Assembly (NCBI GenBank): GCA_018651745.1
Contig: JABIDL010000026.1
Location: 1 to 64,000 of the forward strand
Length of the DNA: 64,000 nucleotides
DNA from: Candidatus Neomarinimicrobiota bacterium
GTDB lineage: Bacteria > Fidelibacterota > Marinisomatia > Marinisomatales > TCS55
Direction of reading: 5' to 3'
Positions 29,548 through 53,133 of this stretch are shown piece after piece. The notes beneath the pieces were generated by a model. That model was not told where the DNA came from. It did not search any database and saw nothing but the letters and a program-made list of their open reading frames with translations. Numbering within the stretch: position 1 is the first letter of the stretch; every line of letters starts with the position of its first letter. Position numbers and translations under genes: made by a program.

Positions 29548-29658
29548 ACCCTAAAATTTACTACAGGAAATAATTATCGTTTAGCTCTACTATTAGATTG
29601 GATAAAGCCTGTGGATTTGGATAAGGAATTTTAAAATAATTATCCTAATCTGGTTTTG

Positions 29659-29732
29659 TACGCCCGACAGGATTCGAACCTGTGACCTTATGCTCCGGAG
29701 GCATACGCTCTATCCAGCTGAGCTACGGGCGC
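29659..29732 (-). tRNA. tRNA-Arg (anticodon CCG)
   Basis: Acceptor GCGCCCG/CGGGCGT (terminal G-T pair), anticodon stem TATGC/GCATA with loop CTCCGGA, T-arm ACAGG-TTCGAAT-CCTGT. It reads CGG. No encoded CCA. Confidence 0.95.
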
Positions 29733-47094: not shown

Positions 47095-48474
47095 CTACTG
47101 AACTGTTAAAATAGATTGAATTGAAGGTAAAGATCTTTGTGAAGATCCCCATGATTCCATAAAATAATTTGAATCAACTATTGAACTCACAAAATTCTTT
47201 TCCGCCAGTGTATAGTAAACTCTCTCTTTTTTAAATCCAGTGAATCCAGAAGAAAGCAATGAATCCTGTTCAAATATTTCAAGTTCTTTCCATAATGACT
47301 TTCCATATTTAATTTTACTATTATGCCAAAAATCATCATCATTATTTAATTCTGAATAATTATTAAGAGCGTAGTTTAGGTTTGTTTTTTTCTCTTTATA
47401 ATCAAAACCAAGTTGTCTCCAATATTTATTTCCTGTTTCTAACGCAAAATTGAGTTTTCGATTTATTCCGATATCAAAATATTCTAAATTTCCATACATA
47501 AGTAAAATACTTGAATCAGGAATATTTATTGTATTATTAGCCCATTGATACTTCATTAAATCACTTATTTTATTCCATTGTTTAACATTTAAAGTATCAC
47601 TTTTTGAATTATTGTTAATTTTTAAATCCATCCATTCTTTTGAAGATGAAAGCTCAAATAGATTTCCGATAAATAAAATAAGCGATAAAATTGTTGTAGC
47701 AATAACACCAGCTTTCACCATGTCCTGCCCTCTCACACCGCCAATCAGTTCTGGCTTTTGCGAAAGGTATGCGCTGGCGGCAAAGAATTCTTCACCGATG
47801 AGGGTATAATCACATGCCGTAACAAAGAATGGAATCTGCGCTTGCGAAGCTGTTCCGGCAATTTGAATGGCACCGATTGAATTTCCTGTTTCCGCCAAGA
47901 TTAAAGATTCCGCATAAAATTTTCCCATATACAAACAGGCAGCCGGTTTTTCACGAACCATAATTCCGTTAACGCCGGCCGCATAGGCAAATTGGTCATC
48001 TGTCAAATAATGCACCATATCTTCGTGAAACATGTCCGGACGGCCTTCCATCATATAAGATTCTCTACATGCTTCCCGTGCGGCTTTCATAACAATAGAT
48101 CTTGACACTGGAACATTAAGAGAAGTTTCATATCGTGCAGTCATTTTTGAAACATGACCTAAAACGATCACGCCTGCAACTGTTTCCACTTGATCCATAT
48201 CCATAATTCCCGGTACAAATAAAACAGGCTTTCCCATTTCTGTAGATCTACCAACAGCTTCTTCAACTGCTTTCAATCCGGGAATGGGACGTAAATAAAA
48301 TTCTTCTCCGCGTTCTGCCATGCGAATATTATAGAGTAATGTTGCTCCAATTACGACAATAGCAATAAACATTACAATTCTATTTGGATTGAAAAGCGGA
48401 TGCCCCGCAGACCAATAGACTAGGAACGCAAAAGTCAACCCTCCGGTTATCATCCAAAATTGTTTATCCTTCAC
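47095..48474 (-). CDS. DUF6754-type membrane protein with an atypical C-terminal extension
   Basis: Two N-terminal helices (about 8-22, 30-48), then a cytoplasmic domain (about 65-265) that I recognise as DUF6754-like: AVEEAVGRSTEMGKPVLFVP, AYAAGVNGIMVREKP, LILAETGNSIGAIQIAGTAS and LIGEEFFAASAYLSQKPELI. A third helix follows (VIATTILSLILFIGN, near 275). The last 170 residues are different: rich in Asn, Lys, Ser, Tyr and Trp, encoded by visibly more A/T-rich DNA (about 47095-47640), with no membrane helix. This tail may be a lineage-specific or acquired domain. Overlaps the small upstream gene by 11 bases. Confidence 0.75.
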   Translation of the reverse strand: MKDKQFWMITGGLTFAFLVYWSAGHPLFNPNRIVMFIAIVVIGATLLYNIRMAERGEEFYLRPIPGLKAVEEAVGRSTEMGKPVLFVPGIMDMDQVETVAGVIVLGHVSKMTARYETSLNVPVSRSIVMKAAREACRESYMMEGRPDMFHEDMVHYLTDDQFAYAAGVNGIMVREKPAACLYMGKFYAESLILAETGNSIGAIQIAGTASQAQIPFFVTACDYTLIGEEFFAASAYLSQKPELIGGVRGQDMVKAGVIATTILSLILFIGNLFELSSSKEWMDLKINNNSKSDTLNVKQWNKISDLMKYQWANNTINIPDSSILLMYGNLEYFDIGINRKLNFALETGNKYWRQLGFDYKEKKTNLNYALNNYSELNNDDDFWHNSKIKYGKSLWKELEIFEQDSLLSSGFTGFKKERVYYTLAEKNFVSSIVDSNYFMESWGSSQRSLPSIQSILTVQ

Positions 48475-48802
48475 TCGCTTCTCCTTCCATTTCGGAATTT
48501 ACTTTATCCAGACGTTCAATTTCTGATAAAAGAAATTCTACCGTATCCGGTTCTTCAAAAAGTTCTGCGGCTCGATAATAACCATCCGCTTTTATAAAAG
48601 AATTTACAATCGGGCCAAAAAATACCATAGCATGACTGCCAAGCAATGCTAATGGTTTTGTCATTTCCAGAAAAAAAATAGCCGGTGTTACAAATCCCGA
48701 ACGCTGGATTCGTTTAGCCAATCTTGTGATGAATTCTTTATCGGGATTGGATAAAGATATTGGATTAGGAGTCAATGGATTGGGATTGGAAGTTTGGATC
48801 AT
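48464..48802 (-). CDS. Small conserved protein, N-terminus encoded by repeat flank
   Basis: 112 aa as read. The core from about residue 24 (EFITRLAKRIQRSGFVTPAI, then FFLEMTKPLALLGSHAMVF and FLLSEIERLDKVNSE) looks like a compact mostly helical protein with an amphipathic or membrane-associated middle. No family named. The first 18-20 residues (MIQTSNPNPLTPNPISLSNP) are encoded by the flank shared with the IVP cassette at 50 kb, and the only ATG before residue 48 lies in that flank. The native start may have been lost or may be a TTG. The end overlaps the DUF6754 gene. Confidence 0.65.
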   Translation of the reverse strand: MIQTSNPNPLTPNPISLSNPDKEFITRLAKRIQRSGFVTPAIFFLEMTKPLALLGSHAMVFFGPIVNSFIKADGYYRAAELFEEPDTVEFLLSEIERLDKVNSEMEGEASEG

Positions 48803-48857
48803 TAAGGCTGCCTTTTAATAAAATTAATTTTCTTTTCCATCGTCTTTATCCTAATCC
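48763..48857. repeat. Collapsed IVP cassette (solo remnant)
   Basis: The left flank GATTAGGAGTCAATGGATT...GGATCATT (48763-48803) matches 50011-50057. The right flank TTTTCTTTTCCAT..TCTTTATCCTAATCC matches 50446-50475. Between them, on the minus strand, ATG at 48840 opens a 12-codon frame MEKKINFIKRQP ending at 48802, matching the MEKKIYF start of the intact IVP gene. About 370 bases of coding sequence are missing. Best read as a deletion remnant of the same cassette. Confidence 0.75.
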
Positions 48858-48867
48858 ATTTTCCATT

Positions 48868-49995
48868 TTAGTCTGTTTCAACCATTTCCAAATTTGCCCG
48901 GGGAATTTCAACATTTTCTCCATCAATTTCAATGATAGCAACCCGCACCATAGTTTCGGATTCCATTTTTCTCAAATCAGCAGGAAGGTCTATGACTTTT
49001 CCCATTCTTCCAAAATAAGGAGCGCGAATAACACGAACAAGGCTTCCGGCCTGGATTCCTTCGGACGCATTGGCATCTTTGTGATCACCCTTTAGTTGAT
49101 CTTTTGTTAACGGAACAACAATTTCAGGGCGAATGACACCGGCACGAATTTGCGTTGCGCCATTAACAGAAGCAAATTTTCCGCGATGTTCCTTTAATAA
49201 ATCAAATGTTTGCGAACCCATTCGGATTTTTCCATATCCTTCGGTTAGGATTAGCGATGTAACCAAATCTTCCGAACCCGTAATGGCAACACCGAGGGTA
49301 TATCCTAAAATATCTTCTAAATCGAAATAATTAAATCCGCCGACAACGACTCCTGCCACTTTCATTTGAATCGCTTTTTTGTACGCGTTTAAACTTATAA
49401 AAGAACCGCCAACAATAATTTTGCCTTCTAATTCTGATGTGATCATTTCTTCAGTGATTTCATCTTCTCGAGTACCTGTTACTATTTCAAGATTTCCTCT
49501 GCTTTCCCCGCCGATTCCAAAAATTCCCTGAATAAATACACCTTCAGATTCAATGATAACGCCTTCTTCCGGAAGGACTTTTTTAATGGTTCCGCTCATG
49601 TATGCGTCAATTTCAACGGGAATGGGCGCTTCGCGAATCACGACCTGTCCCGTGGTATCAGAAATCACTTCTATGGTCCCATCGACAGGAGCGATTACAT
49701 TGGATTTGAATAAACCGAATATTCCTTTTGTTTCAGCAATCATTTCATCTTTACTGACTGCCGTGCCTTCTTTTACAATCATTGCTTCTTTTACATCATC
49801 CGCATCAATATTTAATTGGTTAGCAACATTGACCATTTGGACATTTCCGGGTAAATCCGTTTTTGCTACAATATCATCGGGTGTAACATTTGAACCTTCT
49901 TTAACTGTTACCGTGCCTTTTAAAGGCAAACGTCTCTCTTTATCGATCTTCGTTTCGTGTAAAACTTTGAGTCCGGGTGTGTATGCGTGGGCCAT
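48868..49995 (-). CDS. Barrel-sandwich/KOW-domain protein of the MutL/DUF6754 operon
   Basis: 375 aa, no membrane segment. Residues about 20-170 contain repeated lipoyl/barrel-sandwich-like units (LKGTVTVKEGSNVTPDDIV, FKSNVIAPVDGTIEVISD, MSGTIKKVLPEEGVIIESEG). A middle domain (ELEGKIIVGGSFISLNAYKK, then VAGVVVGGFNYFDLEDIL) follows. The last 55 residues form a KOW/SH3-like domain (AGSLVRVIRAPYFGRMGKVI; GENVEIPRANLEMVE). It may act as a cytoplasmic adaptor; the lipoyl-type folds show no obvious attachment Lys. The start lies just after the left flank of the intact IVP cassette. Confidence 0.72.
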   Translation of the reverse strand: MAHAYTPGLKVLHETKIDKERRLPLKGTVTVKEGSNVTPDDIVAKTDLPGNVQMVNVANQLNIDADDVKEAMIVKEGTAVSKDEMIAETKGIFGLFKSNVIAPVDGTIEVISDTTGQVVIREAPIPVEIDAYMSGTIKKVLPEEGVIIESEGVFIQGIFGIGGESRGNLEIVTGTREDEITEEMITSELEGKIIVGGSFISLNAYKKAIQMKVAGVVVGGFNYFDLEDILGYTLGVAITGSEDLVTSLILTEGYGKIRMGSQTFDLLKEHRGKFASVNGATQIRAGVIRPEIVVPLTKDQLKGDHKDANASEGIQAGSLVRVIRAPYFGRMGKVIDLPADLRKMESETMVRVAIIEIDGENVEIPRANLEMVETD

Positions 49996-50010
49996 AAATT
50001 CAGTAGATTA

Positions 50011-50500
50011 GATTAGGAGTCAATAGATTCGGATTAGGATTGGGAGTCTGGATCATTTAGGCGACTTCTCCATAATCTGATATTTCTTCACTTATTTGAT
50101 TCATTGCCGATTGTGATAATTTTGTCAGCATTTTAACAATGGATAATAATAATTCTTTACCATCAACAATTTCATTTTCATTTAATAAGTTTTTCACGAC
50201 GATCACATCTAGGCAGGATGCACATTCCAAAGCAGATGCCCTTGCAATTTCAAAATAACGTTTTCTATCCTTTGGATAAGATTTACCATTTCCTTCCGCT
50301 ATATTTAATGGCACAGAAATTGACGCTCTATCCAATTGATCTGCTACATTTTTGTTTTTCCTAATTGGTTTCCAAAATGAATTCAACCATTCAATAAACT
50401 GAAGTGAAAATTGATAAACCTCTAATTTCTCATGATTAAAATATATTTTCTTTTCCATATTCTTTATCCTAATCCTTATCCTATGCCCTTATCCTAATCC
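50011..50500. mobile_element. IVP cassette: four-helix-bundle gene flanked by inverted GGATTAGGAT repeats
   Basis: The gene is bracketed by GGATTAGGAT (50031-50040) and its reverse complement ATCCTAATCC at 50466-50475 and again at 50491-50500. Both flanks recur at the remnant at 48.8 kb. The cassette interrupts an otherwise tightly packed operon. No transposase or recombinase is encoded within it. The right repeat also supplies the last codons (Gly-Leu-Gly) and the stop of the MutL-family gene. Confidence 0.6.
50057..50458 (-). CDS. Four-helix-bundle protein, 23S rRNA IVP family
   Basis: 133 aa with the hallmark pattern of the 23S rRNA-intervening-sequence protein family: KLEVYQFSLQFIEWLNSFW, then VADQLDRASISVPLNIAEGN, then RYFEIARASALECASCLDV. 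The family forms homopentameric four-helix bundles; its function is unknown. Here it is not inside an rRNA gene but between two genes of a membrane operon, with repeat-type flanks. A short frame starting at the adjacent ATG (MIQTPNPNPNLLTPNLIY) overlaps its stop and matches the N-terminus of the small gene at 48.8 kb. Confidence 0.93.
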   Translation of the reverse strand: MEKKIYFNHEKLEVYQFSLQFIEWLNSFWKPIRKNKNVADQLDRASISVPLNIAEGNGKSYPKDRKRYFEIARASALECASCLDVIVVKNLLNENEIVDGKELLLSIVKMLTKLSQSAMNQISEEISDYGEVA

Positions 50501-52312
50501 TTCCAACGAAGGATACTCCTGCATAGCCGCTGACCACTTTGATAAATCAGCAATGCGTTGCTGCGAATTATCGGAAATATTCATTGGACGCCCACGTCCA
50601 TCTAAAATGATTCCAACCACGCCGCCATAAATAATGGTTTGGATGGTTTCATTTTTTCCTGAACCGATATCCATACCTTTTCCCGGAGTCAGTTTAGCAT
50701 TCACTTTTTCATACGGAACATCAATTCTGACAATATCGCCAAATTTGATTTCATGAGTTTGAGTTTCGCCATTTAACAATGTTAATTCCGCATGTAAAAC
50801 GGTTGTACCCGGTTTTGTGGTTCCAACAGGCGCGACGCACGTTCCAAGGTGAATTAAGCAATCTTTTTCAAAAACTTCGATGGCAGCAGCGCGAGCATCT
50901 TGCGCTAAATCTTCCTTTTCGATTTTTGCCATGACACCAAGCTGCGGCATCATAAAAATGGAATCCACGGCTAATTGTGTAATGCCTTCCGGCAGAAATG
51001 AATCAATCAACATTCGAGCAGATTGCTCTCGGCGAGGCGCATGAGATAAAACGCCGCCGGATCCAACCAGTAAATCGAGTTCCATCATATCCACTAAAGA
51101 TTCACCCGAATCTGTTTGCTCAAATGCGTCGGAGATGGTTCGTTCTTTTTGAACACCTTTTAAGTTGACCGCAAATGATTTATGCTGGATAAAAGAAAGG
51201 CGCAATGCTTCTCGGGCGATGGCTTGTTCAATCACCAATTCTTCCAAACTTTGGGGAACCGTCGTTGGGCGAATCATTTTATTTCCGATTCGATTTGTTA
51301 ATTCTTTTTCATCAATGTTAAATGGAACCCAACGTAACACATTTTTCAATCCCGATTCGGCTAATACATTACAAATGGAATAGCTCATTCCAAGATTTGC
51401 GCTTACAGTTCGATTAAATTGTTTTTGAAAGACGGAAAAAATATCTGTAGTAGCTCCCCCAATATCGACTCCGACAACGGAAATATTCTCTTTTTCTGCT
51501 ACCATTTCAATGAGAGCACCCACAGCGCCTGGTGTTGGCATAATCGGTGCGTCCGTCCATTCCATCAACTTCTTATATCCGGGCGCCTGCTGCATAACGT
51601 GTTCCATAAATAAATCATGAATCTTATCTCGTGATGGCTTCAGATTTTCCCGTTCCAAAACAGGACGGATATTCTCCGTTAAATCAAGATCGGTGATTTC
51701 ACCGAGTGTTTCTTCGATTTTACCAGAAGCGTCTGTATTTCCGGCGTAAATAACCGGTAATTTATAGTTTGTACCTAAGCGTGGTTTTGGATTGGCAGCT
51801 GCGAGAATTTCAGCCAATTCGACTACGTGTTTAGTTGTACCTCCATCAATGCCACCCGAAAGTAAAATCATATCAGGGCGAAGCTGCCTAATTCTGGTTA
51901 TTTTTTCGTGTGGTTTCCGGCCATCGTTTGACGCTAAAACATCCATTACAATAGAGCCCGCACCTAATGCCGCACGTTCTGCAGATTCTCCGGTCATTCC
52001 TTTTACTACTCCGGCCACCATCATTTGTAAACCTCCACCTGCCGAACTTGTGGAAATATAAATATCTACACCTACATCCCCAGAACTCGGAGTGAGAATA
52101 TGATCTCCATCTAATAATTTCCTACCGGCAAGCTCTTCGACTTCCATCACAGCGTTTAGTACTCCTTTGGTTACATCCTCAAAAGGTGCCTCCACTGTAG
52201 TCGGAGCTTCCCCACGCACGCTTAGCCGAAATTCTCCATCGATTTTTTCGATTAGAATCGCTTTGGTTGTTGTACTCCCGCAATCCGTAGCTAATATACT
52301 TCTTAATTCCAT
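50489..52312 (-). CDS. MutL/GlmL-family ASKHA ATPase
   Basis: Matches the family named for glutamate-mutase-associated MutL/GlmL, an actin-like (ASKHA) ATPase. Phosphate-1 motif ATDCGSTTTKAIL at the N-terminus, SSGDVGVDIYISTSSAGGG, MILLSGGIDGGTTKHVVELA, then phosphate-2 GVDIGGATTDIFS near residue 280 and MELDLLVGSGGVLSHAP. No glutamate mutase subunit (mutS/mutE) is nearby; the gene instead heads a membrane operon, so mutase repair is doubtful. 607 aa from ATG 52312 (MELRSIL), 5 bases after cdsA. Confidence 0.88.
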   Translation of the reverse strand: MELRSILATDCGSTTTKAILIEKIDGEFRLSVRGEAPTTVEAPFEDVTKGVLNAVMEVEELAGRKLLDGDHILTPSSGDVGVDIYISTSSAGGGLQMMVAGVVKGMTGESAERAALGAGSIVMDVLASNDGRKPHEKITRIRQLRPDMILLSGGIDGGTTKHVVELAEILAAANPKPRLGTNYKLPVIYAGNTDASGKIEETLGEITDLDLTENIRPVLERENLKPSRDKIHDLFMEHVMQQAPGYKKLMEWTDAPIMPTPGAVGALIEMVAEKENISVVGVDIGGATTDIFSVFQKQFNRTVSANLGMSYSICNVLAESGLKNVLRWVPFNIDEKELTNRIGNKMIRPTTVPQSLEELVIEQAIAREALRLSFIQHKSFAVNLKGVQKERTISDAFEQTDSGESLVDMMELDLLVGSGGVLSHAPRREQSARMLIDSFLPEGITQLAVDSIFMMPQLGVMAKIEKEDLAQDARAAAIEVFEKDCLIHLGTCVAPVGTTKPGTTVLHAELTLLNGETQTHEIKFGDIVRIDVPYEKVNAKLTPGKGMDIGSGKNETIQTIIYGGVVGIILDGRGRPMNISDNSQQRIADLSKWSAAMQEYPSLEGLG

Positions 52313-52317
52313 CTCAA

Positions 52318-53133
52318 TTACCGCACCCAAAGATAAATATAAGATAAGGGTGCCGCAAAGATCATTGAATCAAATCTATCCAACACGCCTCCGTGCCCCC
52401 TTAAAAATGAACCGCTATCTTTTACGCCCGCTTGGCGCTTCATCCAGGATTCCATAAAATCACCTATTTGCCCGATAAATCCTGCGATGAGAGAGAAAAC
52501 CGCAACATCGGTCCATGAAAGTTGCAAACCGCCGATATTCGCCGTTTTAAAAATGATGTATACTGCAAAAGAAGTACCCAATCCGGCTATCGAACCCTGC
52601 ACCGATTTTTTAGGACTTGCCCAGGGAATAATTTTTGTTTTCCCCCAAAGTATACCGGCCCCCATACAAGCGGAATCGCATAGCCATACGGCAAGAATAA
52701 CTGCAGCGGTAAACATGGTTCCGTTTAAAGAATCTGCCTGCCGTAAAAGAATAAGAGTTCCGAGAGTAACGGAAATATACAAAATGCCAAATAGGGCTAA
52801 AGAAACATTTTCTAAAAAATAATCTCGCTTTCGAAATAATTCTGAAAACATAATCAAAAAAGTAAATGCTATCAATGATCCGATTAATTCAATAGATGAA
52901 ATTTCAAGATTGAAATGATAAAAAATTAAAACAATAATCCCACCACCAAGTCCTAACATTTTGGAAGGAGAATATCCTTTTTCGGCATAGAGATTGTAAA
53001 AATCAGTTAATGCGAGTAAAACCACAAGAGTGATAAATATTGAGAAATAGATTTCACCAACCCAAATCAAGGATATGATTGCAGGGATCCCGATGAAATT
53101 AATAAGTGTTCTTCCTTTGCCTTTTTTTGTCAT
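52318..53133 (-). CDS. cdsA: Phosphatidate cytidylyltransferase (CDP-DAG synthase)
   Basis: Makes CDP-diacylglycerol from phosphatidate and CTP in the inner membrane. Seven or eight hydrophobic helices and the family signature near the C-terminus: SPKKSVQGSIAGLGTSF, GQIGDFMESWMKRQAGVKDS and FLRGHGGVLDRFDSM. 271 aa from ATG 53133 (MTKKGKG); the frame extends to a TTG at 53172. It lies 5 bases before the MutL-family gene, so it may be co-transcribed with that operon. Confidence 0.94.
   Translation of the reverse strand: MTKKGKGRTLINFIGIPAIISLIWVGEIYFSIFITLVVLLALTDFYNLYAEKGYSPSKMLGLGGGIIVLIFYHFNLEISSIELIGSLIAFTFLIMFSELFRKRDYFLENVSLALFGILYISVTLGTLILLRQADSLNGTMFTAAVILAVWLCDSACMGAGILWGKTKIIPWASPKKSVQGSIAGLGTSFAVYIIFKTANIGGLQLSWTDVAVFSLIAGFIGQIGDFMESWMKRQAGVKDSGSFLRGHGGVLDRFDSMIFAAPLSYIYLWVR

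Follow-up and report, generated by a model that had tools for sequence, protein, structure and literature searches.

The window, that is, the whole stretch of 64,000 nucleotides that was analyzed (contig JABIDL010000026.1 of a Candidatus Neomarinimicrobiota bacterium, hereafter genome G000), contains a minus-strand operon in which a MutL-like gene, site 1, gene B, site 2, gene C, and a DUF6754 gene follow one another in this order. Site 1 holds a full cassette with an IVP gene, while the copy of this cassette at site 2 kept both ends and lost nearly the whole ORF. The features of the locus are the following:

50489-52330, minus strand: MutL-like gene (PF13941, E=4.7e-123), the C-terminus of which (..LEGLG and stop) runs into the site-1 arm
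50007-50484, minus strand: intact cassette at site 1, the junction of the MutL-like gene and gene B; a clean counterpart of this junction is found in genome G017
50454-50500, minus strand: 5' arm of site 1, GGATTAGGATAAGG..GGATAAGGATTAGGATAAAG, forming the inverted-repeat pair I1 with 50026-50052 (27 nt, 74% complementarity)
50057-50458, minus strand: IVP ORF, 133 aa, 23S_rRNA_IVP/four helix bundle protein (PF05635, E=4.7e-21; TIGR02436, E=1.1e-19)
50007-50056, minus strand: 3' arm of site 1, holding a short frame, MIQTPNPNPNLLTPNLIY and stop, that starts directly after the IVP stop
48868-49995, minus strand: gene B, 375 aa, a host gene with site 1 on one side and site 2 on the other; orthologues in 37 of the 61 genomes searched
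48759-48866, minus strand: collapsed IVP cassette at site 2, both ends of which match the site-1 cassette; its junction is common to genome G001
48819-48866, minus strand: 5' end of site 2 (left, in the sense direction), comprising the arm GGATTAGGATAAAG and the first IVP codons; 83% identity over 48 nt with 50437-50484
48802-48840, minus strand: residual 12-codon frame, MEKKINFIKRQP and stop, the TAA of which overlaps the start codon of gene C (TAATG)
48759-48808, minus strand: 3' end of site 2 (right, in the sense direction), AATGATCCAAACTTCCAATCCCAATCC...CCTAATCC, lacking one 6-nt unit that is present at site 1
48464-48802, minus strand: gene C, 112 aa, the N-terminus of which, MIQTSNPNPLTPNP, is encoded by the right arm of the site-2 cassette

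The site-1 protein passed the curated cut-offs of both family models (75.4 bits against 33.8 for PF05635 and 70.7 against 24 for TIGR02436), and the solved chain nearest to it was 2GSC (E=6.9e-7), i.e., XCC0516 of Xanthomonas, which is a pentamer of four-helix bundles according to work cited in PMC4990558. Since the dN/dS ratio of its gene against orthologues was 0.13 to 0.19 (0.03 to 0.05 for gene B), the IVP at site 1 is, as judged by substitution pattern, maintained under purifying selection. The IVP was the sole ORF of the cassette, and neither the ORF list nor a Pfam scan revealed a transposase in it. Folded as one RNA, the full site-1 cassette was no more stable than its shuffles (z=-0.17).

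The presence of a second, collapsed cassette in the same operon had been predicted from the letters of the window alone. A repeat search aligned positions 48759-48787 with 50007-50035 (90% identity) and 48777-48834 with 50031-50088 (74%), and thus confirmed that both flanks of the cassette at 50 kb recur at site 2, with order and orientation unchanged. The stretch originally delimited as 48763-48866 was the right one, but its left limit was not, the better outer limits being 48759-48866. The predicted 12-codon frame resembling the IVP start was indeed located within the matching ends, and it amounts to 39 nt as compared with 402 nt for the IVP ORF at site 1. Likewise, the estimated loss of about 370 bases agrees with the cassette spans of 478 bp at site 1 and 108 bp at site 2. 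The alignment of the two right ends required a single gap of exactly 6 nt, that is, one repeat unit.

The original prediction would have been refuted by a similarity no better than that of random AT-rich spacers. On this view, spacers made of GGATTA-type repeats are alike by chance, and site 2 never held any cassette. The arms are of low complexity and consist of repeated 6-mers, and a genome-wide search of G000 for the GATTAGG arm with two mismatches allowed found it no commoner than its reversed control, so that dispersed copies in this genome are a matter of single cases only. However, the combined local score of the site-2 ends against the cassette was 64.5, while none of 3,090 other window tiles of 121 bases exceeded 25.0 and none of 2,000 shuffles of the site-2 stretch under a first-order Markov model exceeded 31.5. 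When the whole genome was searched with the cassette, the two site-2 pieces ranked second only to the cassette itself, each with E=6.8e-8, and the match following them reached only E=0.0095. Furthermore, the match covers non-repeat parts as well (ATGGAAAAGAAAAT, AATGATCCA.ACT, and the last IVP codons), and a real IVP relic is present at site 2 in two relatives, G010 and G037. Chance likeness was therefore ruled out, and we give it practically no credence. A known structured RNA was dropped as well, because an Rfam search of the window gave tRNAs only. A stable hairpin at site 2 was not supported, the collapsed stretch having folded no better than shuffles (z=-1.43); the ends at this site are complementary over 16 nt only (at 81%).

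The two junctions were then read in 14 relatives of G000. The same-genus genome G001 carries the same collapsed junction at site 2 (ATTTTATTAAA-GGCAGCCT); its presence in a separate genome rules out an assembly artefact as well as a recent event, and comparison of the two genomes dates the loss of the site-2 ORF to before their split. G001 has also lost the left arm through the deletion of 19 bases between ATGGA repeats, hence site 2 does not preserve the pairing of arms. In G010, site 2 holds an IVP gene that is nearly full-length and frame-broken (pseudogenized); together with the junction shared with G001, it bears out the reading of site 2 as a second copy in one operon. The IVP of G037 is cut after about 40 codons and internally deleted, G056 retains the cassette ends only, and in G003 the ends enclose foreign filler, the frame of which stays open to 2 nt before gene C. 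Clean junctions were found in G017, G004, G030, G002, and G044. At site 1, the IVP is intact in G000, G003, and G011, collapsed in G010, and gone in G001, the MutL-like gene of which still terminates in the arm-like GGATTAGGTTAAGG. As separate observations, the site-2 filler of G003 (L027) is palindromic (GTCATCGCGAGG...CGCTCGCAATGAC), and G022 and G011 (L026 and L028, in the region downstream of gene B) carry another repeat, TTCGTGTCATTCGTGGACA, in place of the IVP cassette at site 2.

Two origins of the second copy were originally left side by side, site preference and local duplication followed by internal deletion. The right ends of the two G000 copies scored 36.0 against each other, site 2 scored 24.5 against the best site-1 copies of other species, and only its own orthologue in G001 scored higher (56.5); apart from this orthologue, the two right ends of G000 are thus mutually closest. 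In addition, the IVP lineage (79 to 81% amino acid identity) was not found outside the operon in the 13 relatives searched. On these two grounds, a local duplication, or a conversion between the two junctions, with subsequent internal deletion appears to fit best, and this half of the earlier alternative is supported. Site preference is less favored but retains some probability, as each of the two junctions is occupied in a number of lineages while being clean in others. It would be embodied in two independent insertions of one mobile cassette into two preferred operon junctions, the second of which lost its ORF later. Such a course of events could account for the occupation of site 2 in three groups of the gene B tree (G000 with G001, G003 with G010, and G037 with G056) and its clean state elsewhere, as well as for the site-2 IVP of G010 being closest to that at site 1 of G011 and not to the IVP of its sister G003. 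Yet one old insertion with repeated losses yields an equal pattern, and the gene B tree, the nodes of which are partly weak, does not fix the number of gains and losses. Given also the mutual closeness of the G000 right ends and the failure to find a donor copy elsewhere in the related genomes, we consider two independent insertions unlikely. The site-2 IVP of G010 and the site-1 IVP of G011 share 87.4% DNA identity, as compared with 78.8% for gene B of the same two genomes (84.2% for gene B of G010 and G003), which means that the cassette turns over independently of the host genes and thus also moves, or is exchanged, between lineages without its neighbors.

The collapsed copy affects the beginning of gene C, a gene with no Pfam or NCBIfam match. 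It provides the start codon or the N-terminal codons, while clean genomes use another start; the orthologue at a clean junction begins with MDTTIKTEIQPTLTEQDK. Such a remnant is a route by which cassettes may add residues (here NPNPLTPNP) to the start of a neighboring host protein. Short frames without an IVP end on or beside the gene C start in G000 (TAATG), G001 (ATGA), and G003 (2-nt gap), and one may ask whether the site-2 stretch now acts as a functional leader, with the tiny frame coupling the translation of gene B and gene C. However, this arrangement was seen in three genomes only and with differing overlap positions, operons often show overlaps of the TAATG and ATGA kind, clean junctions manage without a short frame, and gene C might begin at an alternative in-frame TTG. 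As far as the sequences speak, a leader function therefore seems rather improbable.

GTDB species genomes were scanned, which yielded 446 relatives; 80 loci were retained. The flanks of the ORFs proved to be complementary to each other: over 70 loci, the score of own pairs was 21.0 as compared with 11.7 +/- 0.48 for re-dealt pairs and 10.2 for the same flanks in direct orientation. Their autocorrelation peaked at lag 6 (0.425 vs 0.283 at a distance), and the arm unit could be written as GANNAN, runs of at least two units being present on both sides in 62 of 69 loci and inverted in 56 of these 62, while distant flanks seldom went beyond one unit. Three GANNAN units were found in none of 31 loci of other subfamilies; in those of the same phylum, the arm units are 7 to 8 nt long and again complementary. 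A second set of 35 loci, mostly from other subfamilies, also showed complementarity (17.4 vs 9.55 +/- 0.50). By sequence comparison, IVP relatives in many phyla were thus found to be bracketed by inverted, mutually complementary arrays of short repeats, which take the form (GANNAN)n in the site-1 subfamily. Within the phylum of G000, 101 of 149 genomes carry at least one IVP gene. Searches of the open-access literature gave no account of hexamer arms around IVP genes or of inverted repeat arrays flanking such genes in protein operons.

Similarity between arms tracked that between proteins (Mantel r of 0.54, as compared with a maximum of 0.19 among permutations and 0.20 for the distant-flank control). 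Between codirectional genes, the ratio of sense to antisense cassettes was 46:2 in the first set, which includes several loci of one GAPDH-PGK site, so that its events are not all independent, and 28:1 in the second, together 74:3. Such a preference suggests that the cassettes depend on the host transcript, but it fits action in RNA and in DNA alike, because antisense copies, being unexpressed, could be lost. One may also regard the arms as DNA terminal repeats of a transposon-like unit mobilized in trans, with the collapsed copy as a MITE-like derivative. MITEs and REP/RAYT elements have inverted short ends and ORF-less derivatives. Cassettes at site 1 and in relatives share with them the inverted terminal arms, the subfamily-specific nature of which speaks for such a unit, and ORF-less arm pairs do occur in relatives, e.g., at G010:C13:5206-5270, G003:C36 (about 498-600), and G004:C1:78443; under a strict search pattern, arm pairs of the (GATNAN) type without an ORF were found once, in G010. 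Unlike these elements, the window cassette has no transposase, the arms in the class are tandem 6-8-mers particular to each cassette, and the sense bias of the class is strong, which insertion at the DNA level would not by itself lead one to expect, barring a loss of antisense copies. Moreover, no target-site duplication was seen, the clean junctions of relatives being too diverged to define the insertion point. Altogether, we hold a DNA-repeat unit to be possible but doubtful.

The intervening sequences (IVSs) of 23S rRNA with an S23/IVP ORF, as in Coxiella and Leptospira, resemble the cassettes in protein family, in complementary ends, as seen in the cassette family and at site 1, and in the decay of the ORF with the ends kept. 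Those of Coxiella have complementary ends and a decaying S23p ORF, which in strain AuQ01 bears a 176-bp deletion, and a tandem heptamer (GACAGAT) precedes the S23p start (PMC4990558). In contrast to IVSs, the window cassettes sit between protein genes and not in an rRNA gene helix, their arms are hexamer arrays, and the site-1 IVP is under purifying selection. Insertions in the rRNA of CPR bacteria are also known to contain IVP ORFs (PMC11270868), and such ORFs have been observed in cas loci as well (PMC3936711). The site-1 protein fits both the PF05635 and the TIGR02436 model, and the site-2 copy keeps its first codons only; the models themselves are silent on arms, orientation, and collapsed copies. 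PF05635 is reported to be structurally homologous to Avd, the accessory variability determinant of diversity-generating retroelements (PMC10053308), and this homology is the likeness to that system; no reverse transcriptase was present beside the IVP gene among the eight operon proteins scanned.

These findings led us to propose that the site-2 stretch is the fossil of a small cassette of selfish type, which was duplicated or converted within the operon, the arms and the IVP of which may act jointly, and the remnant of which is tolerated; we hold this to be highly probable. The unit consists of a gene for an IVP, a four-helix protein of the S23 family, with an inverted array of short tandem repeats on either side, and its second copy probably arose inside the operon, through duplication or through a conversion involving both junctions. 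It presumably lacks transcription of its own and would be carried in sense on the operon mRNA, in which the arms could form a pairing that encloses the ORF, similar to that of the ends of rRNA intervening sequences. The IVP probably recognizes the arms of its own cassette, and arms and protein may act together either in RNA, as in rRNA IVSs, or in DNA, as the ends of a mobile unit. After the loss of the ORF, tolerance of the remnant would come from its short frame, which leads into the gene C start, and from its right arm, which now forms the N-terminal codons of gene C.

The site-2 finding is real, and the first interpretation of it was right. Taken alone, it is a decayed copy, and its worth is the cassette class that it exposed. 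This class resembles rRNA intervening sequences and resides in protein-coding operons, and the collapsed copy shows which parts of a cassette are dispensable while the ends persist. The subfamily-matched arms are a concrete candidate ligand, as an IVP would be expected to bind the array of the cassette that encodes it but not the arrays of other cassettes. More broadly, IVP genes outside rRNA might be the ORFs of phylum-spanning, operon-resident selfish elements, the proteins of which recognize their own inverted 6-8-nt arrays, which enter or persist in sense only, and the ORF-less remnants of which remodel the ends of host proteins; we put this generalization forward tentatively, its chances being a little short of even.

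Several minor observations were made by eye or along the way. In Verrucomicrobia, IVP cassettes lie between GAPDH-like and PGK-like genes (L083, L085, L094, L095, L102, L110, L133, and L137), and at these sites the IVP stop often overlaps the downstream start by 4 nt. Four loci (L093, L088, L076, and L074) have additional arm arrays beside the cassette arms, like solo hairpins or nested cassettes. In the window, a short arm-like hairpin, GATTTGGATAAGGAATTTTAAAATAATTATCCTAATC, lies at 29604-29655, just 3' of a minus-strand tRNA (29659-29732), and is possibly an ORF-less arm pair of the cassette kind. Elsewhere in G000, an arm-only remnant, GGATTAGGATTAAGGTTAGGAATATGGAAAATTGGATAAAGATG, was noticed between a cysteine-synthase-like and a thioredoxin-like gene (G000:C19:35936-35966; L007, about 1500-1545). 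The genome also contains a second IVP gene, a distant relative with in-frame stops (G000:C27:69926-70204; L001, 1480-1910), the arms of which are built of another unit, GTGAACAG / CAGTTCAC.
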